Source: Ignavibacteriales bacterium
GTDB lineage: Bacteria; Bacteroidota; Ignavibacteria; Ignavibacteriales; Melioribacteraceae
DNA length: 64,000 nucleotides
Direction of reading: 5' to 3'
NCBI GenBank assembly: GCA_026390795.1
Contig: JAPLFG010000002.1
Coordinates: 62,001 to 126,000 of the forward strand
Notes under the pieces: generated by a model
Seen by the model: only the letters and a program-made list of their open reading frames with translations
Told to the model about the DNA's origin: nothing
The model's database searches: none
Translations under genes and position numbers: made by a program
Shown here: positions 47,446 through 64,000 of the stretch, piece by piece
Position numbering within the stretch: the first letter of the stretch is position 1
Layout of the letters: each line of letters starts with the position of its first letter

Positions 47446-48849
47446 CTATAGAGTTTTACCTATACTTCTCCAGTGATTTAAAAACTCCTCGGTTTCTTCT
47501 TTGAGAGTTCTAAAATTTTCATTTTTCTTAACCAAAGAATAATTTTCATCACTTAAGATTTTGATGCAATTCATAAGAGATCTTCCCTCATGATAACATG
47601 CTTTCCAAATATGTCCCTTGGGACCATATTTTAATTGCGGTTCTTTATCTAATCCCCCTTCAAACCAGCCGCCGTATTCATGATCAATACAATAGTTTTC
47701 AACATATTCGATTTGCTTTAAGAAATTATTATAATATTTTTTCTCTACTGGAAAGATTTGTGAGAAAAGCAGTAAAGAGTTTAGTCCTTCTGCTTGAGAC
47801 CACCAGTTTTTCTTGTCATTTATTATTGTGCATTTATCAGAATCTTTGAAGTAATATCCGCCATCATAAAATCCTCCTAAATTATTATCCCACCCATTTT
47901 CTAATGCATGATCTAACATCTTTTTAGCAACTGATAAAGTCCTTTCATCATCTTTGATTTTTAAAGCATAAGAAGCTTCCAGTAATAAAAATGCGGTTTC
48001 ATAATCATGGCCGAATGAAACATGGTCTAACCCATAATTTTTCTTTCTTTCTTCATCACTGGAATCTCTATATGAAACGGGAGCCCAATTATGTTTGAAA
48101 AATAAATTCATATAACCTTTTTCGGTTGTAATTGTATCACGTATTAATAAAAGTAATCTGTGCAATTTAATCCGTAGTTTTTCATCCGGCCAGATTTTAT
48201 ATAATTCTGTATATGCTTCCAGCAGATGAATGGAACAATTTTGGTCTTTGTAGTAAGCTTCATTTGCATCCGATGCTTTAGTGTTTTTAATGTCTTCTAG
48301 ACCAAAAGGTTTACCTTCACGTGTCAGGAATTGAAAATATCCGCCATCATTCCGATCATAAGCATGATTTTCTATCCAATCAAACGCTTTAATTGCAAAA
48401 TCTAAAACTTCCTTTTCTTTTGTGAGCTCATAGAATGCCGCAAGTGCATAGATGCCGAATGCTATTCCATAAGTACGTTTTTCTTCAAAATATCCTCTGT
48501 AATCCGAAATATCTCCATCCGGAGAACGCATTGTGTAAAATCCTCCGTATTCCTTATCCCAAATAATATCTTTAAGAAATTTGTAACCATGCCACGCAGC
48601 TTCCAAATACCTTGGGTCTTCAGTGAAAAAGAGAGCAGCTTTCGAAGGTGTCCATGTATGGCGCGCCTGAGTTACAATCATTTTATCCTGAGGATCTATA
48701 AATTTCCAATCATAAGATAAATTGTTTAAGAAACCGCCGAATTTATTATCCAATGTCAAAGGGTAAAATTTTTCTAATAAATCCGTCGTAAGCATTTTGT
48801 GCAATTTTTGGACAATATCTTTTTTCGAGTCTACTAAAGCAATATCCAT
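47446..48849 (-). CDS. AGE-family sugar 2-epimerase (cellobiose/mannobiose 2-epimerase type)
   Basis: The 467-residue enzyme has an (alpha/alpha)6 barrel of the N-acylglucosamine 2-epimerase family. Catalytic-type motifs: QARHTWTPSKAALFF with the early His/Arg, SFGHDYETAFLLLEA with the His and Glu, NWWSQAEGLNSLL, GGWFEGG and HIWKACYHEGRSLMN with the second catalytic His. No signal peptide is seen, so it is cytoplasmic. It would convert mannobiose or cellobiose units entering from beta-mannan breakdown; which disaccharide is used cannot be told here. It is divergent from the GH5 lipoprotein gene. Confidence 0.88.
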   Translation of the reverse strand: MDIALVDSKKDIVQKLHKMLTTDLLEKFYPLTLDNKFGGFLNNLSYDWKFIDPQDKMIVTQARHTWTPSKAALFFTEDPRYLEAAWHGYKFLKDIIWDKEYGGFYTMRSPDGDISDYRGYFEEKRTYGIAFGIYALAAFYELTKEKEVLDFAIKAFDWIENHAYDRNDGGYFQFLTREGKPFGLEDIKNTKASDANEAYYKDQNCSIHLLEAYTELYKIWPDEKLRIKLHRLLLLIRDTITTEKGYMNLFFKHNWAPVSYRDSSDEERKKNYGLDHVSFGHDYETAFLLLEASYALKIKDDERTLSVAKKMLDHALENGWDNNLGGFYDGGYYFKDSDKCTIINDKKNWWSQAEGLNSLLLFSQIFPVEKKYYNNFLKQIEYVENYCIDHEYGGWFEGGLDKEPQLKYGPKGHIWKACYHEGRSLMNCIKILSDENYSLVKKNENFRTLKEETEEFLNHWRSIGKTL

Positions 48850-49118
48850 CTTTTCACCTAATCTGTTTTTCTACTTATTATTACTTTCAAAAATTGTGCT
48901 CAAATAAAAAAATTATTTTCGAACTAATATTCGATTGATTTGCGCCTACCATTTTAACAAAATAATAAAGAATTATTGAATTGATAAAAAAGGAGGACTT
49001 GGATGAACGGGATTTAGACAACCAAGACAATCTTGCAAAGGCATTATTTTTGTTGATTTAATAAACTCTATAAAAAATATTTATAGAAAAATTAACCAAA
49101 TAAAATGTTCAAGCCGTT

Positions 49119-50942
49119 ATGAAACTGATTAGAATAATTAAAATCCTTTTGTTTCTTTTAATTACGCTTTTATTTACTCACTGCGCGGCGGGATTTAGTA
49201 ATTTCATCACAGCTGAAAAAGATCAATTAAAAGACGGAGAAAAAAATTTTAGATTCATTTCTTATAATATTCCCAATCTTCATTACATCGAAGACTATAT
49301 GAAATTCGATGCAGCAAATCCGTGGCGACTTCCGAATGAATTTGAAATAAGAGATGCATTAAAAGCGATTAAACAAACTGGCGGTAAGGCTACAAGGAGT
49401 TATGTACTTTCAGTCCGCAAAGAAGGGGAGTCTTCGAATATAATCCGTCATGTCTTAGGGCCAGGTAAATTTGATGAAGATGCATTTAAAGCATTAGACT
49501 TAGTGATGAAGATTGCAAATGAAGAAGGGATTAGAGTCATCATTCCGTTGGTCGATAATTGGTGGTGGTGGGGAGGTCCAAAAGAATATGCAGCATTTAG
49601 AGGAAAAGATAAAAAGGAATTCTGGACTGATTCACTTCTAATTTCCGATTTTAAAAAGACCATTGATTTCATAATCAACAGAAAAAACACTTATACCGGC
49701 ATTCTTTATAAAGAAGATAAAGCATTATTGGGCTGGGAAACCGGTAATGAATTGCAATGTCCTTATTCTTGGTGTGCGGAAATAGCAAAGTATATTAAAA
49801 CTATTGATAGAAATCATCTTGTCATCCAAAATACACATGTTAACATTGTAGCAGAGGAAGAAATAAAAGATACTAACATTGATGTTGTATCTACACATTA
49901 TTATTCACCCGGAGATGTAGCCGCAAAGTATATTAAAGAGAATAAACAAAATACAAAAGGGAAAAAACCGTATTATGTTGGCGAATTCGGATTTCAGCCA
50001 ACGAAAGATATTGCTGCGGTTCTTGATACTGTAATAAAAGATAGTGTTTCCGGCATTATGCTTTGGAGTTTGCGATTTCATAATAGAGATGGTGGATTTT
50101 ATTATCACTCAAGCGATAATGGAGGAACAGCTTATCGCTGGCCTGGATTTGGGAGCGGCAAATTATTCGATGAACAAAATGTAATGCAACTAATGAGAGA
50201 AAAAGCATATGCAATTAACAACGAGCCAATTCCACCTATGCCTATCCCCGAAGCACCAATACTTCTACCAATATTAAAACCATTTGAAATCTCGTGGCAA
50301 GGTTCAACGGGCGCGTCAACGTATATAATTGAGAGAAAGGAAGAAAAAGAATCTAATTGGAAAATCCTTACAGATAATATTACCGATGCGGTATGGCCTT
50401 ATAAACCGCAATTCTCCGATACTTCAGTCGTGATTGGTAATAATTATACATATCGGATAAAAGCAAAAAATGAGTCGGGTGAATCAGATTGGTCTAATGA
50501 GGTGGGACCCATAAAAGTCAATTACAAAATGCTGATTGATGAAATGGAAAACGATAATAAAATATTTTTGAAAGATGGAGAATTTGAATTCATAACATAT
50601 AAACAGATTGTTCAAGCAAAAGAAGATAGAAACCGCTTGAGCGGAAAGAGAGGCAATTATATAATTTATAAAATTCCCGGTAGTATTAATTCTGTAAATG
50701 TAGAATTTTATATGACCGGAGAGGAAGGTAATCTTGAATTAAGTTGTTCAGATAATAATGATAATTATTCTCCAATTATTATGAAAAAAAAAATCTTCAT
50801 ACCTGAAAAAAATGAGTACAAATTTTTTACGTGTGCAAGATACACAAGTGGAGAATTGCCGGAGAACTATAGATATATCAAAATAGTTTTTGGAGATGCG
50901 GTTCAAATAGGAAGAGTATCAGTGTCTTACAAAGGAAAATAA
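49119..50942 (+). CDS. GH5-type beta-mannanase-like lipoprotein
   Basis: The 607-residue protein has a hydrophobic N terminus ending in a lipobox (LLFTHC at 18-23), so it is likely an outer-membrane lipoprotein. The barrel (about 40-370) carries GWETGNELQCPY with the acid/base Glu, and YYVGEFGF with the nucleophile Glu, as in mannan endo-1,4-beta-mannosidases of GH5. A run of Trp (DNWWWWGGP) marks the substrate groove. A Pro-rich linker leads to a fibronectin-III-like domain (about 390-468, FEISWQGSTGASTYIIER) and a last beta domain (about 475-605). It precedes the esterase by 23 bases. Confidence 0.88.
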   Translation: MKLIRIIKILLFLLITLLFTHCAAGFSNFITAEKDQLKDGEKNFRFISYNIPNLHYIEDYMKFDAANPWRLPNEFEIRDALKAIKQTGGKATRSYVLSVRKEGESSNIIRHVLGPGKFDEDAFKALDLVMKIANEEGIRVIIPLVDNWWWWGGPKEYAAFRGKDKKEFWTDSLLISDFKKTIDFIINRKNTYTGILYKEDKALLGWETGNELQCPYSWCAEIAKYIKTIDRNHLVIQNTHVNIVAEEEIKDTNIDVVSTHYYSPGDVAAKYIKENKQNTKGKKPYYVGEFGFQPTKDIAAVLDTVIKDSVSGIMLWSLRFHNRDGGFYYHSSDNGGTAYRWPGFGSGKLFDEQNVMQLMREKAYAINNEPIPPMPIPEAPILLPILKPFEISWQGSTGASTYIIERKEEKESNWKILTDNITDAVWPYKPQFSDTSVVIGNNYTYRIKAKNESGESDWSNEVGPIKVNYKMLIDEMENDNKIFLKDGEFEFITYKQIVQAKEDRNRLSGKRGNYIIYKIPGSINSVNVEFYMTGEEGNLELSCSDNNDNYSPIIMKKKIFIPEKNEYKFFTCARYTSGELPENYRYIKIVFGDAVQIGRVSVSYKGK

Positions 50943-50965: not shown

Positions 50966-52993
50966 ATGAAAGTATTCTTACTTCTCCTATCTATGGTTTC
51001 GTTAATTAATATAAGCTATGGCAGTGAAAAGAAGATTTTTTTAGAAATACCCTCTCTCTTCTCCAATAATATGGTTTTGCAGCAGAAATCAGATGTCCCA
51101 TTTTGGGGAAAAGCTACTCCCGGATTACGAATATCCTTCGATGCAAGTTGGGGCAGAGCTGCTAAGACAATTGTTAAAGATGATAGTACTTGGTTCGTCA
51201 AAATAAAAACTCCGAAAGCTGGGGGACCATATAAAATTGATCTTCAAATCGGCGATTCAACAATAAATTTCTCAAATGTTTTGATAGGAGAAGTTTGGCT
51301 TTGTTCTGGTCAATCAAATATGGAAATGCCATTAAGAGGATGGCCGCCATCTGACACTATTTCATTCTCAGCACAATCAATAAGAGACGCAGACTATCCT
51401 AATCTTAGATTTTTTACAGTTGTTCGTGCTTATTCTGAAAGACCTGAACAAAAATGTTCTGGGATCTGGTCAGAATGTACTCATGCAACTGCTGAAGGTT
51501 TCAGTGCTACGGCTTTTTTCTTAGGAAGAAAATTAATGCAAGAATTAAAAATTCCAATTGGATTAATCCATTCAAGCTGGGGTGGTACTCCCGCTGAAGC
51601 GTGGACAGGAGAAAAATATCTCGCAGAAATTGAACAATTCAAAGACATCATTAAAAAATTAGATGACGGCAAACCTGAAATTGTCAAACTTAATCGATGG
51701 ATTAGAAATCATCCGATAATTGATATCTCTAAAAAAAATCCGCAACAAAAATGGAAGGAATTGGACTTTGGAGATTCAGTTTGCTCAATATCTAATTATG
51801 ATGATAGTAAATGGAACACAATGAATTTACCAACTCAGTGGGAGAGTACCGAAGTTGGTGATTTTGACGGAGTAATATGGTTCAGGAAACAAATTAATAT
51901 TTCTAAAAACTGGCTTAACAAAGATCTAATACTTGAGATCGGCAAAGTTGACGATATGGACATTACATTTGTCAACGGTGTGAAAGTTGGGTCTTATGAA
52001 GAAGACGGATTCTGGCAGACAGAGAGAGTTTATAATGTACCTGCAGAAATTGTAAAAGACACATTGATTACGATTGCTGTAAGAGTTCTTGATAATCAGG
52101 GTGGTGGAGGAATATGGGGACCGAAAGAAAAAATGAAATTGTCTTTAAAAGAAGAGCGAGAAAATATTTCTCTATCTGGTGAGTGGAAATATCTTCCGGT
52201 TGCTCAATATATAGCTGATAATTTTTATGTTTTTGGCACAAAAGAAGATGAGTATTTGTCACGTCCGAAACTTTCATTAAGCATTGGTCCTTCTACTCCC
52301 ACAGTACTTTATAACGGTATGATTTCGCCTCTTATTCCTTACAAAATTAAAGGAGTTATCTGGTATCAGGGTGAATCGAATGTAGCGAATCCGGAATTGT
52401 ACAAAATTATTTTTCCTACTATGATTAGAAATTGGCGTAACGATTGGAAGGAAAGAAGCTTTCCATTTTATTATGTTCAGATAGCACCATGGATTTATGA
52501 TAGTGGTTCCCAATCACAAAAATTAAGAGAGGCGCAACTCGTTACATTATCAGTACCGAAAACAGGAATGGTTGTAACTCTCGACATCGGCAGTCCCAAC
52601 ACGATCCATCCTCCCGACAAAGAAAATGTTGGTGAAAGGTTAGCATTATGGGCTCTCGCTAAAGATTATAACAAGAGAGTCGTTTATTCAGGTCCAATCT
52701 ATAAATCAATGAAAGTGAAGAAGGATAAAATTATTTTAACTTTCGATCATATTGGTAAAGGATTTATTCTGAAAGAAAAAGAAAGCCAAAAGAATTTTCT
52801 AATTGCAGAAGAAGATAAAATATTCAAAGAAGCAGAGTTAAAAATAGTGGGGAAGAATTTAATTGTTTCTTCTCCAGGTATGAAAGCTCCTGTTGCAGTA
52901 AGATATGGCTGGAGTAATTATGTTGATGCTTCGTTATTTAACAAAGAAGGTTTACCTGCATCATCATTTAGAACTGATAATTGGGAAAATTGA
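50966..52993 (+). CDS. Sialate O-acetylesterase-family esterase
   Basis: The 675-residue secreted protein has a signal peptide (1-19) and the SASA/SGNH esterase pattern: GEVWLCSGQSNMEMPL with the nucleophilic Ser (about residue 116), IPIGLIHSSWGGTPAEAW, WYQGESN, and DIGSPNTIHPPDKENVG with the Asp/His pair. A jelly-roll insert (about 270-400, WFRKQINISKNWL) is typical of this group. In carbohydrate loci such enzymes remove acetyl groups from hemicellulose rather than sialic acid. It follows the GH5 lipoprotein in the same direction. Confidence 0.88.
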   Translation: MKVFLLLLSMVSLINISYGSEKKIFLEIPSLFSNNMVLQQKSDVPFWGKATPGLRISFDASWGRAAKTIVKDDSTWFVKIKTPKAGGPYKIDLQIGDSTINFSNVLIGEVWLCSGQSNMEMPLRGWPPSDTISFSAQSIRDADYPNLRFFTVVRAYSERPEQKCSGIWSECTHATAEGFSATAFFLGRKLMQELKIPIGLIHSSWGGTPAEAWTGEKYLAEIEQFKDIIKKLDDGKPEIVKLNRWIRNHPIIDISKKNPQQKWKELDFGDSVCSISNYDDSKWNTMNLPTQWESTEVGDFDGVIWFRKQINISKNWLNKDLILEIGKVDDMDITFVNGVKVGSYEEDGFWQTERVYNVPAEIVKDTLITIAVRVLDNQGGGGIWGPKEKMKLSLKEERENISLSGEWKYLPVAQYIADNFYVFGTKEDEYLSRPKLSLSIGPSTPTVLYNGMISPLIPYKIKGVIWYQGESNVANPELYKIIFPTMIRNWRNDWKERSFPFYYVQIAPWIYDSGSQSQKLREAQLVTLSVPKTGMVVTLDIGSPNTIHPPDKENVGERLALWALAKDYNKRVVYSGPIYKSMKVKKDKIILTFDHIGKGFILKEKESQKNFLIAEEDKIFKEAELKIVGKNLIVSSPGMKAPVAVRYGWSNYVDASLFNKEGLPASSFRTDNWEN

Positions 52994-53183
52994 TTCGGTT
53001 TTTGTACAAGTAACTCAGGAAAAATTATTTCTCCATTATTCTGTAATCAATTAAATGAAATCCAATTTTCTTGAAAAGCTAAAATTTTAAAAGGAGAAAT
53101 ACCGTAACAATACTTGAATTGAATCTAGATAAAATAAATAGAACGAAAAAAAACAAATCGGGTGCATAATGTTTGGAGGAGTG

Positions 53184-54263
53184 ATGAAAAAAATGATACT
53201 ACTTTTTATTATGATATTTACAATTACATCTATTTTCCCATGTATTAATGCTCAGCAAGAAAAAAAAGAGAAGAAATATCATGAATGGTGGAACGATCAG
53301 AATATCGGAAAACCGCTTAACAGTCCAAATGCAAAAAAACTTTCTCTCATTCATGTGAAGGGAAATCGATTTGTTGATGGGAAGGACAGTACAATTTTAT
53401 TCCGAGGTCTTTCTATTTCCGATCCGGATAAAATTGAACATCAAGGTCATTGGAATAAAAATCACTTTATAGAAGTAAAAAAACTTGGGACTATGATAGT
53501 TCGTATACCGGTTCATCCGATTGCCTGGCGCGAACGTACACCGGAGAAGTATCTAGAACTATTAGATCAAGCTGTTGAATGGTGTACTGAACTTGATATG
53601 TACATAATAATTGATTGGCATTCTATAGGTAATTTAAAAATGGAGTTGTTCCAAGATCCCATGTATTATACAACACTAAAAGAAACTTTTGAATTTTGGT
53701 TAACAATCGCCAGGCATTTCAAAGGGAATAATACAGTTGCGTTTTATGAATTATATAATGAACCAACGCTTTATAACGGCGAGCTAGGGAGAATGTCATG
53801 GAGTGAATTGAAAAAAATAAACGAAGATATGATTAGCTTAATTCGTGCATATGATAAAGAAAAAATTCCTCTTGTCGCTGGTTTAGATTGGGCTTATGAT
53901 CTCACTCCGTTATTAATAGAACCGATTGAAGCTGAAGGAATTGGTTATGTTTCACATCCCTATCCCCATAAAAGAACTGTTCCTTATGAACCAAAGTGGG
54001 AAGAAAATTTTGGTTTCGCATCGAACAGGTATCCAATAATTGCAACTGAAATTGGTTTTACACTTGGTAAAGAAGGATTAAATGATAACGGTGAATACGG
54101 CAAATCAATTATAAATTATCTCGAAAATAAAGGTATTAGTTGGATTGCATGGGTATTTGATCCTCAATGGTACCCTAAAATGTTTGAGTCTTGGAGAACT
54201 TATAAATTAACAGAAAGTGGAGAATTTTTTAAGGAAGCGATGCAAGGAAGAATTAATAAATAA
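53184..54263 (+). CDS. GH5 endoglycosidase (cellulase/mannanase-like)
   Basis: The 359-residue secreted enzyme has a signal peptide (1-24, cleavage at INAQ) and a GH5 barrel: VRIPVHPIAWR, IIDWHSIG, FYELYNEPTLY with the acid/base Glu, and IIATEIGFTLG with the nucleophile Glu, then WVFDPQW. The substrate (glucan, glucomannan or mannan) is not readable; context favours the beta-mannan group. ATG at 53184 is preferred because GGAGGAGTG lies directly before it; the upstream ATG at 53169 would cover this site. Confidence 0.88.
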   Translation: MKKMILLFIMIFTITSIFPCINAQQEKKEKKYHEWWNDQNIGKPLNSPNAKKLSLIHVKGNRFVDGKDSTILFRGLSISDPDKIEHQGHWNKNHFIEVKKLGTMIVRIPVHPIAWRERTPEKYLELLDQAVEWCTELDMYIIIDWHSIGNLKMELFQDPMYYTTLKETFEFWLTIARHFKGNNTVAFYELYNEPTLYNGELGRMSWSELKKINEDMISLIRAYDKEKIPLVAGLDWAYDLTPLLIEPIEAEGIGYVSHPYPHKRTVPYEPKWEENFGFASNRYPIIATEIGFTLGKEGLNDNGEYGKSIINYLENKGISWIAWVFDPQWYPKMFESWRTYKLTESGEFFKEAMQGRINK

Positions 54264-54436: not shown

Positions 54437-54469
54437 TTATCTTATTGATAAAATTTATCATTACGATAA
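54437..54469. promoter_or_regulatory. Tandem TTATC-N5-GATAA dyads, candidate activator site
   Basis: Two perfect 15-bp dyads, TTATCTTATTGATAA (54437-54451) and TTATCATTACGATAA (54455-54469), have centres 18 bp apart, nearly two helical turns. They end about 75 bases before the sigma-54 core promoter, or roughly 100-130 bases before its likely start, where enhancer-binding proteins usually bind. Confidence 0.65.
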
Positions 54470-54542
54470 AAAGATTCTATGTAGGATAATATATAATACA
54501 CATCATAAATAATTAAATCATAATTTAAATCATCCAAAGTTC

Positions 54543-54558
54543 TGGCACTATTTGTGCC
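54543..54558 (+). promoter_or_regulatory. Sigma-54 promoter of the TonB receptor gene
   Basis: TGGCAC-N5-GTGCC keeps both invariant pairs, GG (54544-54545) and GC (54556-54557), at the exact 12-base spacing, with 9 or 10 matches to TGGCACG-N4-TTGC(A/T). Transcription should start near 54569. A sigma-54 activator gene lies at 63419. Confidence 0.72.
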
Positions 54559-54791
54559 CTTTCTCAATATTAATTTATTCTCTATAAATCCAAAAAAAAG
54601 AATTTCTAAAAAACTTCATCAGAGGGAAAATTTATTTATTTAAAATGATGTACTAGAGAGGCAAAGTATAAATCCACAATACTGAAAAAGTCGTATAAAT
54701 TAGCGTTGAAGTCATTTCCTATAAATGTGCAATAATTTCTCTATTAATAATCAAGTGTGGATTGGGGGTATCAAAAAATAGGAGAAAGCAT

Positions 54792-57773
54792 ATGATAAAA
54801 AATTTTTACCAATTTATAAGCAAAGTGCTAATTGCTTTCACCATTCTTATTTTTATTTCATTTCAAACTCTCATGGCTGCCGATACCGGGGCTATTAGAG
54901 GTCGTGTATTAGATAAACCAACAAAAGAGGCTCTTATAGGTGCTAGTCTTGTAATTAGTGGTACAAACATTGGCGAATCAGCCGACATTAATGGAAAATT
55001 TTTTATTCGAAATGTACCTACAGGTAAACAAGAACTCGTGATTTCTTATATCGGCTATAAGAAGCTAACAGTTTCTATAGATCTCAGGGAAGATCAAATC
55101 TTGGAACGAAACTTTGAATTAGAACCCGAGTCGCTGGTAGGTCAGACGATTGTTGTAACCGCACAGGCGCAAGGACAGCTATCAGCAATCAATCAGCAAC
55201 TTTCTTCTAATACAATTTCCAACGTAGTATCTGCAGCCCGTATTAAAGAATTACCGGATGTGAATGCTGCCGAGTCAATTGGTCGTTTACCTGGTGTTTC
55301 AATTGAACGATCAGGAGGTGAAGCTACTAAGGTAGAAATTCGGGGTCTTTCCCCTAAGTACAATACTGTTACTGTTAATGGTGTACGGCTACCCGCTACC
55401 GGTGGAGACGATCGCAGTGTTGATTTATCACTCATCTCATCAAACATACTGGATGGAATCACCGTCAAAAAAGCGAATACACCTGATATGGATGCCGATG
55501 CTCTAGGAGGTACAGTAGACCTCAAATTAAAAGAAGCGCCAGATAAAATGGAACTTAACGTTTCTTTACAGGGCGGTTACAATCAACTTCAGAAATATTA
55601 TGGCAATTATAATTTCAACGGTAATATAAGCAACAGATTTTTTGAGGGAGACCTTGGTCTTATTGCAAGTGTTAACATTGATGATTATGATAGAAGCGCA
55701 GATAAATTTCAAGGCAACTACCGTCAGTCAACTCAAGCATTAACAGGCATTACTCAAATTTTACTTTCGAGCTTAAATCTTAGAGAAGAAAAAGTAAAAA
55801 GAGGACGCACCGGTGCAAGTTTCTTACTGGATTATCGTATCCCTTATGGAAAAGTCACAGCTAACTCATTTTATAATCGGCTAAAGTGGGATGGTCTTTA
55901 TCGCATTAACCGAGGCGACATTTTAAACAACAGACATTATTATGATCTTGAACAACGCGGTGGTACAACATCAATTTTTACTGGTGCAATTGGAATGGAA
56001 CAGGATTTCGATTGGATTAAATATGACGCAAATATATCGAGAACAGCGTCGCGATCAAAAAATCCAGGTGAACGTACATGGACTTTCTCTCAGGAAAACG
56101 CAGCATATCTTACTACACAAATTGATCCTGATACTCCCCCGACTATGGTTCCCAATTTGGCAACGATTGATACTAACAGTACAGGAATTGCAGATTTATA
56201 TGTTTATGATACAAGACTTGATGAGAATGAATCTGCGGTACAATTAAATGTTCAAGTGCCTTTCCGATTAACAGATCAGATTAATGGATATCTTAAAACC
56301 GGTGGCAAACTTCGTTGGTTAAATAGACTGAATGATCAAGAGCAAAACGGTCGAAACGGATTGCAGTATGGAGGTGGGACAGCAGTCAATACAATTCTAA
56401 CTTCTACACTAAAATATCTATCTCAAAATTATCCCGATGAATTTAACTGGAAGAGTGACTCATTAATTGCAAGGCGTTATGGTGTTTTTCCAATCTCCAG
56501 CTTCTTGAGTAATTATAGCCGTTCCGATTTTATGAAGGGTGATTATCCGCTGGGATTTGCAGTCGATGAAGCGAAGATGAATAAGTTAATGGATGCACTA
56601 TTTGCAACCGGTGAAAATCGAAACTACGCTATCGGATCCATCGGTCGCGATTATGACGGTGTCGAGCGTTATCAGGCCGGTTACTTTATGAGTGAATTTA
56701 ATGTAACAAAATATGCAACAGTCATTGGTGGAGTTCGTTGGGAAAAAGATTACTCCATATATAATGGTCAAAGATTCAGAGAAGTAACGCTTAATAATAT
56801 TCAAGGACCACCAGCAGATCTTCAAAGACTTACTATAGAACGCAATAATGAATTCTGGCTACCGATGATTCATCTAATTATTAACCCAACAGATTGGTTG
56901 AAAGTACGTCTTGCAAGAACTGAAACACTTACCCGTCCGGACTACATTCAATACGCACCCATTACATCGATTAATTCATACCAGAATTATATTCGCGCAG
57001 CTAACTCAACTTTAAAACCAGCAAAATCTGCAAACTACGATGTTGCCATTTCCGTTTTTGAGAACACTATTGGTCTATTCAGCGTTTCAGGTTTCTACAA
57101 AAAAATAGATGACTTAATTTTTCAAACAACTTATTACCTCAATCCAGGAGTTCCGGTTCTTCCCGGTTTGAATATTCCTGATAATTGGTTAAAGAATGCC
57201 GCTCCTCAAGTTGATACATACATCAACAATCCAACACCTGCTACTTACAAGGGGGTTGAATTCGATTGGCAGACACATTTCTGGTACCTGCCTTCAGTCT
57301 TTAACGGATTAGTTTTGAATATCAATTACACTCGAATATTTTCAGAAATCGAAAAAGAACTATTCTTTAACGGTCAAGGTGCAATCATACCTGGCAGCCG
57401 TCCGCCTCGTCGTGCTAATATTTTAATCGATAGTTCGAGAGTAGCTCGTATGCCAGATCAGCCGGCGCATATTCTAAATGTTACAATTGGTTACGATTAT
57501 ATGGGATTTTCAGCACGATTGTCTTATCTCTATCAGACAAACAAGGTTACATATATTGATAGGTCTCCAGCACTGGATAACTTCTCCGGCACTTATGCAC
57601 GCTGGGATTTTACACTTCAACAGAAGCTGGATTTCGGAATTCAAGTATTTGCAAACTTCACAAACTTAAATAACAGAGCAGACCAGAATTTTAGAGGGGA
57701 AGCATTAGTTAGTCCTACCTACATCGAGTATTACGGTTTTACGATGGACGTAGGTGTGAGATATAAATTGTAA
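54792..57773 (+). CDS. TonB-dependent receptor (Xanthomonas/Caulobacter type)
   Basis: The 993-residue outer-membrane receptor has a signal peptide (about 10-30), a carboxypeptidase-like regulatory domain (about 35-120: GAIRGRVLDKPTKEALIGAS), a plug domain (about 140-265: LPDVNAAESIGRLPGVSIER, VEIRGLSPKYNTVTVNGVR) and a 22-strand barrel. The plug text DMDADALGGTVDL is typical of the TIGR01782 carbohydrate receptors, which work without a SusD lipoprotein; none is present here. AGGAGAAAG precedes the ATG at 54792. Substrate is most likely an oligosaccharide from the neighbouring enzymes. Confidence 0.93.
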   Translation: MIKNFYQFISKVLIAFTILIFISFQTLMAADTGAIRGRVLDKPTKEALIGASLVISGTNIGESADINGKFFIRNVPTGKQELVISYIGYKKLTVSIDLREDQILERNFELEPESLVGQTIVVTAQAQGQLSAINQQLSSNTISNVVSAARIKELPDVNAAESIGRLPGVSIERSGGEATKVEIRGLSPKYNTVTVNGVRLPATGGDDRSVDLSLISSNILDGITVKKANTPDMDADALGGTVDLKLKEAPDKMELNVSLQGGYNQLQKYYGNYNFNGNISNRFFEGDLGLIASVNIDDYDRSADKFQGNYRQSTQALTGITQILLSSLNLREEKVKRGRTGASFLLDYRIPYGKVTANSFYNRLKWDGLYRINRGDILNNRHYYDLEQRGGTTSIFTGAIGMEQDFDWIKYDANISRTASRSKNPGERTWTFSQENAAYLTTQIDPDTPPTMVPNLATIDTNSTGIADLYVYDTRLDENESAVQLNVQVPFRLTDQINGYLKTGGKLRWLNRLNDQEQNGRNGLQYGGGTAVNTILTSTLKYLSQNYPDEFNWKSDSLIARRYGVFPISSFLSNYSRSDFMKGDYPLGFAVDEAKMNKLMDALFATGENRNYAIGSIGRDYDGVERYQAGYFMSEFNVTKYATVIGGVRWEKDYSIYNGQRFREVTLNNIQGPPADLQRLTIERNNEFWLPMIHLIINPTDWLKVRLARTETLTRPDYIQYAPITSINSYQNYIRAANSTLKPAKSANYDVAISVFENTIGLFSVSGFYKKIDDLIFQTTYYLNPGVPVLPGLNIPDNWLKNAAPQVDTYINNPTPATYKGVEFDWQTHFWYLPSVFNGLVLNINYTRIFSEIEKELFFNGQGAIIPGSRPPRRANILIDSSRVARMPDQPAHILNVTIGYDYMGFSARLSYLYQTNKVTYIDRSPALDNFSGTYARWDFTLQQKLDFGIQVFANFTNLNNRADQNFRGEALVSPTYIEYYGFTMDVGVRYKL

Positions 57774-57831: not shown

Positions 57832-60357
57832 ATGAAGTCTAAGTATGGAATCATTTTTTTAACTCTCATTGCAGTAATCTTCGTCTTCTCGGCACAGCAA
57901 CTTAAAGCACAGCAGGGAGATACACTCCTCGTAACGTGGGCACAAGCAGATGGTACCGTAAAAACAGATGCCCTTAGGGATGCTATCGCCAATGATTTAG
58001 ACCGGCCTGCTGGACGTGTTTATAAACTGCAGAGAGGCGGTTTCTATTGGCTCACAGAAACAATCACAAACAATGGCTGGGCACTAAGAATTGTCGGAGA
58101 ACCTCCGGGACCAACACTCTATGATAATCCAGCTGTTCTCCAAATGGTTGCCCGAACAGATGGTACCGTTAACGGTCGTATGATAACCGGAGGCGGTGAT
58201 ATTACATTAAAAAACCTCTACATAGTAGGTGCCGATAATAATGGTGTTCAAACTTATTATCAACCAATTCAGATCGATGCAAGCAACTCCCGTTTTATTT
58301 TCGATAATATCATTTTGGAACGCACTAACTTTGCATTGATTGCTTTTACTGCCAAGAATAATGATATCTTTTTTACTAATTGTAAATTCCGTAATCTTAT
58401 CGGTCAACCGAGTACACAACAATGGGAAGGCCGCGGTATTTCAATTTGGGCCGATCAAGATTCTGTTGTAGTAGAAAATTGTACATTCTTTAATGTTGGC
58501 ATGACTGCACTACAGATTGAAGGTGGCGCTGCCAATTATGTTCGCTTCAACCATAATACACTTGTTAATGTAGGCCGATCTGTGAATACTGGAAATTGGT
58601 GGAAGTACGCTTATTTCGCTAATAATCTTATCATAAACGGTTTCTGGCATGGAGAAGGTTTCGGCGATTATGATTTAGTAAGAAATCCCGGCCGTGATCC
58701 GCGGGCAACAACATCAGGTATGTTCAGCATTGGTGCACTGCCTTCCAAATATGGAACTGAAGAAGCTCGCAGAGTTGTGTTTGCAAATGTAGCCTCATGG
58801 CGTGATCCAGCGTTTGCTCTTTACTATGCAGATTCCATCAGAGCGCAGCCGTTTGTAGGTCCTGTTACTAAATTGGACTTCTTAGCAAAGTACGAACACA
58901 TGGTAGTTAAAGATACAACTTGGCTTGCAACAATGCCAGATATTCAAACATATCCTTACGACATTATTGCCAACATGTATCGTAATATCAAAGATCTGCG
59001 TGCCGGTGTTACACCAGCTACTCCATATTTCTGGAAACTAGAGACTGATCCAACCACACCAAGTTGGCCATTACCTGAGAACTTTACATATACAACTCCT
59101 TCACTCCTCACAGCAGGTACCAATAGTATGCCGCTGGGTGATCTTAATTGGTTCCCCGCTAAAAAAACTGCATGGCAATTAATTAAAGCAAAAGACATTT
59201 CTGATATTGAAAATATGGCCGGTAGTGTAGTAGTCTTAAATACAGTTGAGAAGCAGGAAGCGGAAGTCGGTACAGTATCTGGCACTGCAGCTGTTAAAGT
59301 TGCCAGCGGTTTTGCTTATTATAGATTGTCCAACGGTTATGTTGAATGGACATTTGATTTAGCTACTGAGGGGCAATACGATCTTAATGTATGGACACAT
59401 CTTAACAATCGTACAAACGGTGTTAATTTCTTTGTAAATGATTTCGAAATTCACGATACACGCGGTTGGGGTCAATATGTATTTGGTGTCGATGCTTCTA
59501 GTGTTCATTTAGATTTTCCGCCAAATGCTTGGGGTTGGTGGTTAGTTAAAGAATCCGAGTTAAAAGAATCAGCTAGTTTACCGCTTCATTTAAAAGCTGG
59601 TTCAAATAAAGTTCAAATCAAAGCTTCTTGGTGTGATAATATGTACGCTGGTTTTAATGTTCTTCAGCCGGGAACCACTACTATTGTAAAATCATTAAGA
59701 GCTTCTGATGTAACGGCTTCAGACATCGCTTCTTTAGTGCTAGAAGGCGCTAAATGGACACCAAGCGGATTGAAATCAGTTGATTTAGGAACAAATGGTA
59801 CTATTGAATGGAATGTTACAGCCCCAGATGCAGGAAAGTATAGACTGCAAGTATTCTACCAAAATGGAGGATCTGCTAAAACAATGCAAATTAAAGTAGG
59901 GGGTAGTACTGTTATCTCCGACTTTAGTTTAGATGGCAAAGCAGATTCGACGGGACTAGTAAAATTATCCAATACATTTACATTAGTTAAAGGAACTAAT
60001 AAAGTTGCCTTAACTGGATCAGGAGTAAATGTTGACTATATTCAACTGATTCAAGATCTAACAACGAGTGTAAAAAAACTCGACGAGATTCCTACAGGTT
60101 TTGCTCTTCAGCAGAATTATCCGAATCCATTCAATCCATCCACTACGATTCGATATCAGATTCCTAAAGAATCAAAAGTTACTTTGAAGATCTTTGATAT
60201 TCTCGGCAGAGAAGTAGCTACTTTGGTTAATATGCAACAAGGCGTTGGATCCTATGAAGTGAATTTCAATGCAATGAAATTTGCAAGTGGTGTATATATT
60301 TACAGAATTTCTGCAGGAGATTTCATGCAAACTAAGAAGATGATGTTGCTTAAGTAA
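57832..60357 (+). CDS. T9SS-exported beta-helix protein with carbohydrate-binding domains
   Basis: The 841-residue secreted protein has a signal peptide (1-25), a right-handed parallel beta-helix (about 30-330) with repeated strand text (ITLKNLYIVGADNNG, FIFDNIILERTN, VVVENCTFFNVG, YVRFNHNTLVNVG), two beta-sandwich carbohydrate-binding-like domains (about 470-620 and 625-745) and a T9SS type A tail (NYPNPFNPSTTIRYQI ... GVYIYRISAGD). The helix resembles pectate-lyase/PL6-type lyases or binding proteins (DUF4957/DUF5123 group); I cannot see certain catalytic residues. It follows the TonB receptor by 58 bases and may be in its operon. A terminator follows. Confidence 0.85.
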   Translation: MKSKYGIIFLTLIAVIFVFSAQQLKAQQGDTLLVTWAQADGTVKTDALRDAIANDLDRPAGRVYKLQRGGFYWLTETITNNGWALRIVGEPPGPTLYDNPAVLQMVARTDGTVNGRMITGGGDITLKNLYIVGADNNGVQTYYQPIQIDASNSRFIFDNIILERTNFALIAFTAKNNDIFFTNCKFRNLIGQPSTQQWEGRGISIWADQDSVVVENCTFFNVGMTALQIEGGAANYVRFNHNTLVNVGRSVNTGNWWKYAYFANNLIINGFWHGEGFGDYDLVRNPGRDPRATTSGMFSIGALPSKYGTEEARRVVFANVASWRDPAFALYYADSIRAQPFVGPVTKLDFLAKYEHMVVKDTTWLATMPDIQTYPYDIIANMYRNIKDLRAGVTPATPYFWKLETDPTTPSWPLPENFTYTTPSLLTAGTNSMPLGDLNWFPAKKTAWQLIKAKDISDIENMAGSVVVLNTVEKQEAEVGTVSGTAAVKVASGFAYYRLSNGYVEWTFDLATEGQYDLNVWTHLNNRTNGVNFFVNDFEIHDTRGWGQYVFGVDASSVHLDFPPNAWGWWLVKESELKESASLPLHLKAGSNKVQIKASWCDNMYAGFNVLQPGTTTIVKSLRASDVTASDIASLVLEGAKWTPSGLKSVDLGTNGTIEWNVTAPDAGKYRLQVFYQNGGSAKTMQIKVGGSTVISDFSLDGKADSTGLVKLSNTFTLVKGTNKVALTGSGVNVDYIQLIQDLTTSVKKLDEIPTGFALQQNYPNPFNPSTTIRYQIPKESKVTLKIFDILGREVATLVNMQQGVGSYEVNFNAMKFASGVYIYRISAGDFMQTKKMMLLK

Positions 60358-60381: not shown

Positions 60382-60417
60382 GGCAGGGGAGTAATATACT
60401 TTCCTGCCGTTTTTTTA
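60382..60417 (+). terminator. Rho-independent terminator after the beta-helix gene
   Basis: A 12-bp stem with two G-T pairs (60382-60393 with 60397-60408, GGCAGGGGAGTA/TACTTTCCTGCC) has a 3-base loop and a run of seven T after GT. It lies 25 bases after the stop and ends the sigma-54-driven unit. Confidence 0.88.
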
Positions 60418-60598: not shown

Positions 60599-61906
60599 AT
60601 GATTCATATTAAACAAAAATGGGGATCAACTCTTCTTGTCCTTTTGATAATTGTTTATGTGGCAATTTCATTCGTTCAGAATTATGGTTCTAGCAATGAA
60701 ATAACAAAAATATATTTTGCGGATAGATTTACATTCGCTCATAAATTACTGATTGAAAAATACAATAAGCTAAATGAAGGAAAAGTAAAAGTAATTCCAA
60801 TTGATTTTCCAAATTTCGATTTCAGTACAAATGAAAGAAAAGAAGTTCTTGCAAGATCTTTGAGAGGAACAGGAGATGGAATTGATTTATTAGCAGTTGA
60901 TTTGATATGGGTACAAAGGTTTGCAAAATGGTGTGAACCATTAGGACAGTATTTTTCTGAGGATGAAAAAAAAAGGATTCTGCCATGTGCTTTAGAATCA
61001 TGTTATTCCAACGGCAAATTAGTAGCTGTACCGCTGAATCTGGTGCAAGGTGTTTTATATTATAGGGAGGATATAATAAAAAAACTGAAAAACGGTGAAG
61101 AGATAATCAAAAAAATAAAAAACTCTGTTACATGGGAAGACTTTATTAAACTAAATAAGAAACTTAACTTGAATAATCCTTTTTATCTTTTCCCCGCCGC
61201 TGATTATGAAGGTCTCATATGCTGTTATATGGAACTGATTCTTAGTATGAAACCAAACTATTTTAAAGAATACGGGTTCAATCTTAAATCACCTGCAGCT
61301 AAAAAATCATTACAACTGCTGGTAGATTTGGTTAACAAATATAAAATATCTCCACCTGAAGTTACTGAATTTACAGAAGTTACTTGTTATGAATACTTTA
61401 TAAAAAATAACGGTCTCTTTATGTTTGGATGGCCTACTTTTGATAAAGATTTTAAAGAAACCCCTTTTGATATTTTGAAAGAAAGCAATTTAAAAAAAGC
61501 TCCTCCTCAATATTTTGAAAAAGGAGTACCGACATCAGTGTTCGGTGGCTGGGACTTAATGATCTCTAAATATTCAAATAAGAAAAAAGAAGTAGCGGAT
61601 TTTGTTAAATTTCTTCTAAGCGATGAATCACAGGAAGTATTTTACAAAGAAAGTAGTTATTATCCAGTAGTTAATAAATTTTATGAGAGTGATTATTATA
61701 CTTCAATGTATCCCGAAATTTCAGAAATTAAAAAAATGTTAAAAATAGGTGTGCATCGTCCGGCGGATGAAGAATACACAAAATATTCCAAAATAATGTC
61801 TTACTATTTTGATCTGGCAATTAAAAATAAAATCTCTGTAGATGAGGCTTTACAAAAATCTACAGATGCTATACAAATTGAGAAAAAGATGTTTGAAGAG
61901 TTCTGA
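60599..61906 (+). CDS. Membrane-anchored extracellular solute-binding protein
   Basis: The 435-residue protein has an N-terminal hydrophobic segment (about 10-27) with no lipobox, then a family-1 sugar-binding fold: ITKIYFADRFTFAHKLLIEKYN, GDGIDLLAVDLIWVQRFAKWCEPL, VPLNLVQGVLYYREDII, TSVFGGWDLMISKYS, with a closing VADFVKFLLSDESQE helix. No permease or ATPase gene is near; the next gene is a histidine kinase. It probably presents a ligand to that kinase rather than to a transporter. Confidence 0.85.
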   Translation: MIHIKQKWGSTLLVLLIIVYVAISFVQNYGSSNEITKIYFADRFTFAHKLLIEKYNKLNEGKVKVIPIDFPNFDFSTNERKEVLARSLRGTGDGIDLLAVDLIWVQRFAKWCEPLGQYFSEDEKKRILPCALESCYSNGKLVAVPLNLVQGVLYYREDIIKKLKNGEEIIKKIKNSVTWEDFIKLNKKLNLNNPFYLFPAADYEGLICCYMELILSMKPNYFKEYGFNLKSPAAKKSLQLLVDLVNKYKISPPEVTEFTEVTCYEYFIKNNGLFMFGWPTFDKDFKETPFDILKESNLKKAPPQYFEKGVPTSVFGGWDLMISKYSNKKKEVADFVKFLLSDESQEVFYKESSYYPVVNKFYESDYYTSMYPEISEIKKMLKIGVHRPADEEYTKYSKIMSYYFDLAIKNKISVDEALQKSTDAIQIEKKMFEEF

Positions 61907-61927: not shown

Positions 61928-63409
61928 ATGTTAATACGAAACATCAAGGGCAAAATATCGAAATACCGATTTGAGATACGACATATCACTATTTTCTTAA
62001 TTGTTTTAATAATATTCCAAATCATCTTAGCATTTGTTCAAAAATCCTCCTTAAATGATTTCCTAGTACAAACACAATCCTGGTATCAGAAATATTCTAC
62101 CGAAAGATTAGCAATCGTGACTTCTACAAGTTTGGAATTATTATTTGAAAATTTATTTATAGATAAAACTGTTCGTGATTTTGATGAAAGAAAAATGATT
62201 TATTCATTTAATGTAATTTTTAAACAACAACTGATGCAGAAAAGTGTAGAAGATATTTGTTTAATCCTTGTAAAAAACCACGAACTTTATGTTATTGACA
62301 GCGGGCATAAATTATATTCTTATTTAACTAATACATTACCGGCATTTCCTATTGACAGTAAAGAACATAGAGAAGGTATCTCTCTATTCCTGTCACTTAA
62401 AGGTAAAATAAAAAAATCTGAGACGATTTATAGCGAGCTCGAAAATCAGCAGACGTTTAATATATTGGTACCATTTGTACCCGATGGGGAATATTTGGGA
62501 GTGATGTATATGAAAATTATTCCCGACTTTTCTTTTCTAACAAAAGAAGTCAGTGCAAACTTTAATAAAGTCGCAATGATCTATTCGTCTCTGATCTTAC
62601 TTGGATTGATTGCAATCTTTTATATCTCTTCAAGAGCTGTTAAAGAACGGAATGAAGCTCAGAAAAAATTCTTTGATGAACACGAAGAAAATATAAAGAA
62701 GCAGATTAGGTTAGAGAAGGAATCGTTATTTACAAAAAGAATTTATCATACTCATCACAAGGCTGAGAAAATTATAGGTTTTATAAAAGAAGATATTAGA
62801 AATATTGGGAATAAAAATGTGGATGATATCCAAAAACGGGTTATTACTTATTCTAACTTTATCTCTAGAATTATTTATGATATGAAATGGTATGACCAGG
62901 AAATCAATACTATTATAAATCCAATGTTTAACACCAATATAAATGGAGTAATCAAATTTATTGTTCAATATGTATTTTTAAGAATTACAAGTAAGAATGA
63001 AATGTTTGACTTTAAGTTGGATTTGGATGAGACTCTTCCGATTGTTAAAGTTAATGAATACATAGTGTGGGAAATACTTGAACCTCTAATCCAAAATAGT
63101 ATTGATCACGGCAGCAAACATTCAGTCACAATAAAGATTGCTACTAAATATGACCGGGAACAAAACATTTCTCATATATCAATTGAAGATGACGGAGTGG
63201 GTATTCAACCTGATTTGCTTGAAGTAGGTGACAACGGCATTAAAAGAATATTTTTAGAAAATCAGTCTACAAAAAAAATATATGGCGCAAATTCCGGTTA
63301 TGGATGTTACATAGCCTATCAAATGGCTGTTGAAAAATGCGGCTGGATCTTAGATGCGGAAAATTTATCGGGTGCAGGCTGCATATTTAATATCACAATA
63401 AAGAACTAA
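61928..63409 (+). CDS. Sensor histidine kinase
   Basis: The 493-residue protein has TM1 (about 22-39), an extracytoplasmic sensor domain (about 40-212), TM2 (about 213-233), a coiled linker, and a dimerisation region with RIYHTHHKAEKIIGFIKED, an atypical His motif. An HATPase_c domain (about 355-493) has LEPLIQNSIDHGSKH (N box), EDDGVGIQPDLL (G1) and NSGYGCYIAYQMAVE (G2). The phosphoacceptor His cannot be assigned with certainty. It starts 22 bases after the binding protein and ends 10 before the response regulator. Confidence 0.9.
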   Translation: MLIRNIKGKISKYRFEIRHITIFLIVLIIFQIILAFVQKSSLNDFLVQTQSWYQKYSTERLAIVTSTSLELLFENLFIDKTVRDFDERKMIYSFNVIFKQQLMQKSVEDICLILVKNHELYVIDSGHKLYSYLTNTLPAFPIDSKEHREGISLFLSLKGKIKKSETIYSELENQQTFNILVPFVPDGEYLGVMYMKIIPDFSFLTKEVSANFNKVAMIYSSLILLGLIAIFYISSRAVKERNEAQKKFFDEHEENIKKQIRLEKESLFTKRIYHTHHKAEKIIGFIKEDIRNIGNKNVDDIQKRVITYSNFISRIIYDMKWYDQEINTIINPMFNTNINGVIKFIVQYVFLRITSKNEMFDFKLDLDETLPIVKVNEYIVWEILEPLIQNSIDHGSKHSVTIKIATKYDREQNISHISIEDDGVGIQPDLLEVGDNGIKRIFLENQSTKKIYGANSGYGCYIAYQMAVEKCGWILDAENLSGAGCIFNITIKN

Positions 63410-63418
63410 AGGATTTTA

Positions 63419-64000
63419 ATGACTAGAAGCGATCAAATAAATATTCTTCTTGTTGAAGATGAAGATTTTGATGTAAGAAGAGTAAAAAATACTGTCAATT
63501 ATTACGAAACCCGAATTAAAATAGTAGATGTTGTTTCAAATGGCAGGGCGGCAATCGAATTAATTCAGGCGAGTCCAGATAAATACGATGTTGTAATTCT
63601 GGATTATCAGATATCGGGAGGATTGCGCGGTGAAGAATTGATAGTAAAAATAAAAGACTACGATCCTTTTATTCAAATAATTGTAATCACTAAGATGACG
63701 ATCAATATTACAAATTACGATTTTGCAAATAGTCTCTTAAGATCTGGTGCGTTTTGGTATTGTACAAAATATCCCGGAAACATTGAGGAATATATATATC
63801 AACCTACGGATTTTATACTAAGCATTTTCAATGCTTTTGAGAAGAAAAAATTAGAAAAGCAAAAATTAAGATCGGATAAAAAATTAAAACAGAATATAGA
63901 ATCACTGCTTGAATCAAAAAAAATTATCGGCGAATCAAGACCGATGCAACAGCTCAAGGAAAATATTGAAAAATATGCCAAGAGCGATGCAAATATATTG
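63419..64000 (+). CDS. Sigma-54-type response regulator (NtrC family), partial
   Basis: This gene is cut by the window end after 194 codons. The receiver domain (1-130) has ILLVEDEDFDVRR (acidic pocket), VVILDYQIS with the phosphorylated Asp, VITKMT and CTKYP with the conserved Lys. After a charged linker, IIGESRPMQQLKENIEKYAK is the start of a sigma-54 AAA+ domain; its GESGTGKE Walker A would follow beyond the edge. The ATG at 63419 has AAAGGA before it. It is the natural partner of the kinase upstream. Confidence 0.9.
   Translation, partial: MTRSDQINILLVEDEDFDVRRVKNTVNYYETRIKIVDVVSNGRAAIELIQASPDKYDVVILDYQISGGLRGEELIVKIKDYDPFIQIIVITKMTINITNYDFANSLLRSGAFWYCTKYPGNIEEYIYQPTDFILSIFNAFEKKKLEKQKLRSDKKLKQNIESLLESKKIIGESRPMQQLKENIEKYAKSDANIL

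Follow-up and report, generated by a model that had tools for sequence, protein, structure and literature searches.

How the uptake of a polysaccharide is switched on in Ignavibacteria is the question raised by a 64,000-nucleotide stretch of an Ignavibacteriales genome (assembly GCA_026390795.1, contig JAPLFG010000002.1, positions 62,001 to 126,000), hereafter the window. Control by SusR, HTCS or ECF sigma factors is best known in Bacteroidia, and the host of this DNA belongs to Ignavibacteria, not to Bacteroidia. The first-pass annotation placed a sigma-54 promoter with two activator-type dyads before the gene of a TonB-dependent receptor, and named a sigma-54-type response regulator at 63419. 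It called such a route unusual for polysaccharide loci, a view that we share, this route not being usually expected for such genes; it also proposed to search the genome for the dyad and for rpoN, and to look for the dyad-promoter pair upstream of orthologues. As argued below, the region 54437-54558 is very probably a real sigma-54-type switch before a sugar-uptake gene, and the switch recurs, along with its regulator gene, ahead of genes for mannan breakdown across many related bacteria.

The region contains two enhancer-like dyads of the form TTATC-N5-GATAA, TTATCTTATTGATAA (54437..54451) and TTATCATTACGATAA (54455..54469), with centres at 54444 and 54462, 18 bp apart; the -24/-12 element TGGCACTATTTGTGCC (54543..54558), TGGCAC-TATTT-GTGCC, follows on the same, forward strand, and has the GG at -24 and the GC at -12, 10 bp apart, of a sigma-54 promoter. 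Both dyads are conserved in relatives, as is TGGYA-N7-TG at the place of the promoter. Direct reading found the annotated dyads, their 18-bp distance and TGGCAC-N5-GTGCC exactly where they had been placed. Transcription is predicted to start near 54569, if the start is 12 bp after the GC, with the dyad centres at -125 and -107, in agreement with the roughly 100-130 bases before the start that had been claimed; the most likely start of the TonB frame is 54792, so that the leader would be about 220 nt. The promoter also contains a perfect 5+5 palindrome, GGCAC-TATTT-GTGCC, and a search of the window against Rfam gave no match.

As for the frequency of these elements, the proposed search of the 4.08-Mb genome found the exact dyad pair, with 2-12 bp separating the dyads, at a single place and its reversed control nowhere; single dyads with up to one mismatch number 12 in the window against 5.8 expected, a count reached by one of 100 shuffles. 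TGGCACN6TGC alone is not enriched, which counts against the main reading: the genome contains five, where the reversed control gives 11, and with one mismatch there are four in the window against 5.1 expected. The genome-wide scan with the strict pattern was unproductive, giving no excess over its reversed control. Since the promoter pattern taken alone does not exceed chance, the -24/-12 match by itself says little; the weight is carried by the combination of dyads and promoter and by its conservation.

The first gene of the downstream operon (54792..57773, on the forward strand like the other genes and the hairpin of this paragraph) encodes a TonB-dependent receptor with CarbopepD_reg_2 and Plug domains (Pfam), whose homologues are 44-66% identical. 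The second (57832..60357) encodes a beta-helix/CBM6-CBM35-like protein with a Por secretion tail, some of its Pfam domains being below the curated cut-off; it is the partner of the receptor and occupies the place expected for SusD, and the pair recurs in loci L116-L118. A terminator-like hairpin at 60382..60408 may separate this operon from the regulator genes, with weak evidence because four such hairpins occur in 11 kb and 6.4 are expected. Then come a solute-binding protein (SBP_bac_1, Pfam; 60599..61906), conserved beside kinase and response regulator genes and proposed as a sugar sensor, a membrane histidine kinase (HATPase_c, Pfam; 61928..63409), and an NtrC-type response regulator. The solute-binding protein has a hydrophobic N-terminal anchor, read by eye; among solved proteins it is closest to those that bind trehalose/maltose and other sugars, and its direct neighbours are not permeases (Pfam). 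Among the ten neighbouring proteins scanned, Pfam detected no SusD-like protein, such as a SusC/SusD polysaccharide utilization locus would have, and neither a one-chain kinase-regulator-AraC protein nor a sigma/anti-sigma pair is found among these ten, the histidine kinase and the NtrC-type regulator being separate.

Regarding the regulator, the window holds the first 194 of its 484 amino acids (63419..64000), and the gene, complete in the contig, extends past the window end to contig 2 position 126870. It combines a receiver and a Sigma54_activat AAA+ domain with GAFTGA (Pfam and sequence) with a C-terminal Fis-like helix-turn-helix, read by eye and without a Pfam hit, which are the parts of an NtrC-type enhancer-binding protein; among solved proteins, an NtrC-family regulator of 447 residues matches it best, over residues 3-483 of 484. 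The response regulator annotated from its first part is thus a full NtrC-type activator. The genome, in five contigs, has one rpoN, the gene whose lack would have spoken against the annotation, and its product has the RpoN box ARRTVAKYRE.

Conservation was studied first of all on the regulator, through the loci of the best 80 of its 173 relatives by protein similarity, 33 of which form clade A (71-82% identity) and 47 clade B (58-63%); the carriers of these best 80 of 173, where named below Bacteroidetes/Bacteroidota, are Ignavibacteria, Ignavibacteriales, Melioribacteraceae and relatives. The regulators of L092-L171 (77 read) have GAFTGA in the sigma-54 contact loop in 49 cases and GSFTGA in 22, and six were unmatched by the expression used. 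The conserved unit is defined as two TTATY-N5-RATAA dyads 18-19 bp apart, followed about 60-110 bp on by TGGYA-N7-TG facing the gene; the decoys were 19 permuted half-sites and seven promoters with wrong spacing, reverse complement, reversed or changed letters. In the clade A loci (n = 33), the dyad pair stands beside 11 of the 54 TGGYAY-N6-TG sites (score at least 17 of 20), with a mean of 0.84 and a maximum of 5 for the permuted half-sites and 0 for each of the seven decoy promoters. The clade B loci have dyads at 8 of 86 sites, against a mean of 1.63 and a maximum of 13 for permuted half-sites and 0 for the seven decoy promoters; as the permuted half-sites reach 13 and the real ones 8, the dyad is not established for clade B. 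At the loci of TonB homologues (n = 29), dyads accompany 9 of 28 sites, with permuted half-sites at a mean of 1.95 and a maximum of 8 and decoy promoters at 0; the 9 and 8 are counts at the loosest score, and at score 19 there are seven real cases against a permuted maximum of 2.

These counts depend on the exact form of the promoter: TGGYAY-TG spaced one letter shorter or longer gave 0 near dyads, and the reverse-complement decoy gave 0 of 53, 86 and 30 sites, so that the orientation relative to the dyads is fixed. With decoy spacings of 4 and 8, one run yielded 10 and 3 sites; on rechecking, all such sites (18 and 4 in that run) proved to be real ones with a second TG. Conservation of the unit spans genera and families and extends to GC-rich DNA, for example that of L107. 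As for the regulator genes themselves, no good dyad lies upstream of them in the window, which is against the main reading; in G051, a weak unit (TGGCATAATGCTTGTT, score 17, locus L071) precedes the gene of the solute-binding protein itself and suggests autoregulation in that genome. A second triad of solute-binding protein, kinase and regulator, of clade B and with a 61% identical regulator, is found in G000 contig 3, 130001-170000 (L244, L245); it adjoins a 789-aa protein, a symporter-like protein and a TonB receptor, and a weak look-alike of the unit (TGGTACCCTTTTTGAA, scoring 15 out of 20) lies in front of the first gene.

Among the regulator loci, a closely related TonB gene was seen upstream in L116-L118 alone, on contigs that stop short of its promoter; TonB homologues were therefore sought directly in 391 genomes of the class, and the 30 best loci were read upstream. 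The comparison comprised 22 genomes, with homologues of at least 44% identity and upstream DNA (only 321-350 bp for G052 and G127), and the clade-A regulator was called present at 71% identity or more. With kinship uncorrected, the unit precedes the TonB homologue in 11 of 14 genomes with the clade-A regulator and in none of the eight without it (p 0.001, two-sided). Both are found in the genome of the window and in G049, G050, G052, G056, G057, G090, G274, G308, G314 and G402; the regulator is present and the unit absent, against the main reading, in G311, where the TonB frame has a stop, G353 and G415; and G082, G092, G104, G127, G130, G178, G199 and G252 have neither. The comparison excludes G258 and G388, in whose loci the start of the gene is missing, the second copies that some genomes have, and six more distant homologues of 37-39% identity, which show neither the unit nor a regulator match above 65% (G417 has a partial one at 65%). 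The dyad-promoter pair therefore does occur upstream of orthologues, before TonB homologues in other genera and before other genes in relatives.

In the 79 genomes of the family, the dyad pair with up to two mismatches occurs at 24 places against 2 for the reversed pattern. In favour of the main reading, TGGYA-N7-TG lies at 60-112 bp and points away from the dyads at 20 of 29 intergenic dyad pairs, and the same promoter is found at 0 of 5 pairs inside open reading frames and at 13 of 380 random intergenic places (p about 1e-18); three of the 29 pairs are from the own genome and many others are mutually related. The loci behind the 29 pairs were not fetched by promoter letters, except L284, which was chosen because of a site noticed where L003 ends. 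Nine of the 29 pairs lack the promoter, against the main reading. Pairs within open reading frames, such as those on contig 3 of G056 and contig 6 of G058, were regarded as accidental, since none of the five scored had a promoter; similar pairs occur in G057 and G068. When TGGYA alone was required, 24 hits beside 21 of the 29 pairs were obtained, with the T at the sigma-54 spacing in 22 and the G in 21.

The composite pattern of dyads and promoter has 31 matches in the 79 genomes against one for the reversed control, with the reservation that its refinement drew on sites from some genomes later counted and that kinship is uncorrected. Twenty-nine of the 31 fall in 12 of the 13 genomes with a clade-A kinase (64-100% identity) and the other two in G076 and G077, so that the pattern is present in 12 of 13 genomes with this kinase vs 2 of 66 others; the thirteenth, G069, is 77% complete, and G049 has two strict sites. 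Clade-B-type kinases are present in many genomes without composite matches. At the class level, there are 45 matches in 27 of 391 genomes against one for the control, the presence of the regulator having been checked in part of these genomes. The elements, their order, spacing and orientation, their conservation and their co-occurrence with the regulator subfamily are thus direct observations, and from them the TonB promoter is read as part of a multi-operon regulon that tracks the subfamily across genomes.

Regarding the -12 element, the C of the GC is kept in 5 of the 20 sites with TG, while the TG before it is kept, which is against the main reading; with the G of -12 in 21 of the 24 hits, relatives have the GC of sigma-54 promoters only in part. 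A set of 28 sites picked by hand agrees, seven having the C and none having TAnnTTTG, a box quoted in a paper that describes sigma-54 promoters in Flavobacterium psychrophilum (PMC9723704, consulted in part). This box marks the Bacteroidota housekeeping promoter, and the element could be one, the dyads being an ordinary operator: many sites read TATTTNTG, one letter off the box, and TA is present in 15 of 20. Exact matches are 0 of 20, and on this count the housekeeping promoter was rejected; moreover, such a promoter has no TGGYA, TGGYAY-TG spaced one letter shorter or longer gives 0 near dyads, and the activator has GAFTGA, and we hold this explanation very unlikely. That GGCAC-TATTT-GTGCC is a palindromic operator and not a promoter would fit the perfect palindrome of the window; the G2-C14 pair is kept in only 5 of 20 sites, the ground on which it was rejected, and the orientation is fixed relative to the dyads, making this extremely unlikely. 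Chance, namely AT-rich dyads next to an accidental sigma-54-like match, would account for a promoter pattern at chance level; it was rejected by the decoys, and with controls near zero and conservation that extends to GC-rich L107, its probability is close to negligible.

A different objection accepts the sigma-54 promoter and its enhancer and assigns the dyads to another activator. Sigma54_activat has 23 matches in the genome, of which 16 are strong (E 1.6e-35 or better). In its favour, the genome also has a clade-B regulator 61% identical to that of 63419 and with a similar last helix (GLAPPNYYRMCKEL vs GLAPSNFYRMCKEL), and look-alike sites stand before symporters in some clade-B loci. Against it, the sites follow the clade-A system in the family genomes while clade-B-type kinases are common where matches are lacking, and both strict sites of the own genome are within 16 kb of the clade-A regulator, so that we hold it unlikely. 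A sigma-54 promoter with enhancer at 54437-54558, driven by the regulator of 63419, is in our judgment highly likely to be the full explanation.

As for other targets, two further units lie in the own genome just right of the window. The first, at contig 2 position 133676, stands in front of genes for a 736-aa CBM35 protein, which weakly matches a glycosidase, and for a GH5; the second, at 141276, stands in front of those for a sodium:solute symporter and for a GH130 that most resembles 4-O-beta-D-mannosyl-D-glucose phosphorylase. In the same area, two short frames were read by eye: a 94-aa one (L003 15723-16007, contig 2 about 129723) resembles a GH3 amino end broken off early, and a 152-aa one (L284 4536-4994, contig 2 about 137535) resembles a shortened GH2-type protein. 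The window has another dyad pair at 48954..48987 on the forward strand (TTAACAAAATAATAA and TTATTGAATTGATAA, at a distance of 19 bp), which is weaker than the first and is followed on that strand by a weaker promoter element, AGGCATTATTTTTGTT (49039..49054), in which the first T is A and the -12 pair GT. The proposed second operon begins, also on the forward strand, with a 607-aa protein without Pfam match (49119..50942), 45-51% identical to the GH5 (Cellulase) proteins of L101, L107 and one of L168; the homologues in L101 and L107 are preceded by clear units. An acetylesterase-type protein (SASA, Pfam; 50966..52993) follows, and a GH5 glycoside hydrolase (Pfam; 53169..54263) ends this gene group on the same strand. 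In relatives, units precede sugar MFS transporters, SSF symporters with GH130, GH9, GH2, GH5, SASA and CBM9 proteins, and some downstream genes, e.g., in L295, have no Pfam match.

The substrate is best read as an acetylated galacto- or glucomannan. The window encodes an alpha-galactosidase, SASA and GH5 (Pfam), and its epimerase at 47446 is closest to cellobiose 2-epimerases; together with a GH130 phosphorylase, this type of enzyme makes up the known mannobiose pathway. The content suits beta-mannan because of the GH130, the cellobiose 2-epimerase type, GH5, SASA, alpha-galactosidase and CBM35; against mannan, the solved enzymes closest to the GH5 at 53169 are named cellulase or beta-glycosidase, not mannanases. 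These genes are best read as an acetylated (galacto)mannan regulon under a sigma-54 activator that acts together with a histidine kinase and a solute-binding protein.

In the mechanism that we propose, an oligosaccharide, probably derived from mannan, would be captured by the membrane-anchored protein at 60599, now a sensor part, which would report it to the kinase at 61928; this would phosphorylate the regulator of 63419, which would then occupy both TTATC-N5-GATAA dyads as adjacent dimers and form an AAA+ ring. The regulator would loop to RpoN-polymerase at TGGCAC-N5-GTGCC and open the promoter of the TonB receptor/CBM operon; it would also drive the 736-aa CBM35/GH5 and the sodium symporter/GH130 operons of the same contig, and probably that at 49119. 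Binding, phosphorylation, the use of sigma-54 in vivo and the inducer are deduced here by analogy with established NtrC biology.

In the open-licence literature, judged by title and the start of the abstract, no description of this system was recognised among papers on sigma-54/RpoN in connection with polysaccharide use, Ignavibacteria, TonB or mannan, or on solute-binding protein sensors. In the parts consulted of PMC12316311, Bacteroidota sigma-54 is tied to chaperones and proteases, TonB (COG0810) is prominent in Flavobacteriia with its sigma-54 control called unconfirmed, and the word Ignavi- is absent. Passages on Melioribacter roseus report mannan hydrolases and a SusCD starch operon (PMC3534657), with no sigma-54 control and without the word rpoN. 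According to part of PMC10576277, susCD is scarce in Ignavibacteriales gene clusters, and two Ignavibacteriales MAGs have about 55 CAZyme gene clusters with no matched substrate.

In conclusion, we lean slightly towards a broader view: Ignavibacteria and relatives may run plant-polysaccharide use via sigma-54, with triads of solute-binding protein, kinase and NtrC-type regulator, each for its own glycan (beta-mannan for clade A, another for clade B), that drive TonB/symporter/hydrolase operons in the role of SusR, hybrid sensors and ECF factors in Bacteroidia, from RpoN promoters tolerating a relaxed -12 (TG instead of TTGC). If this is true, a large part of one Bacteroidota class turns on glycan uptake via ATP-driven sigma-54 and not by the routes of gut Bacteroidia; for uncultured genomes, whose substrates are poorly predicted, the cis-element would then point to glycan operons and perhaps also to the substrate of each.

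Polysaccharide utilization loci of Bacteroidota are usually controlled by SusR, hybrid two-component systems or ECF sigma/anti-sigma pairs. The locus resembles them in its TonB receptor with CarbopepD_reg_2 beside glycan-degrading enzymes and in its co-located sensor, and differs in having no SusD among the ten neighbouring proteins, a separate kinase and NtrC-type regulator, and a sigma-54-type promoter. In Bacillota, the sigma-54 activators of phosphotransferase systems include LevR/ManR/CelR, which are PTS-regulated. Sigma-54 is enriched at sugar phosphotransferase systems of this phylum, and the activator CelR is named in the reference list (PMC12316311, in the parts consulted). Sigma-54 and an activator induce sugar-uptake genes there and, in the scheme proposed, here too; phosphotransferase systems serve there, whereas this locus has a TonB receptor, a solute-binding protein and an activator of the two-component type. 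A solute-binding protein is coupled to a histidine kinase in systems of the ChvE-VirA type; here, too, a sugar-binding protein is encoded with the kinase, apparently as its sensor, but the output is a sigma-54 activator, the binding protein is apparently membrane-anchored and an adjacent permease gene is lacking. Finally, enhancer promoters of NtrC and sigma-54, such as that of glnA, are a known system for comparison. Both have two 15-17-bp dyads with an N5 spacer, centred roughly 100-125 bp upstream, as well as a -24/-12 promoter, and the activator of both combines a receiver, a GAFTGA AAA+ domain and a Fis-like helix-turn-helix; in this locus, however, the letters of the dyads are others, the C at -12 is mostly unconserved in the regulon, and the targets are TonB uptake and glycoside hydrolases.
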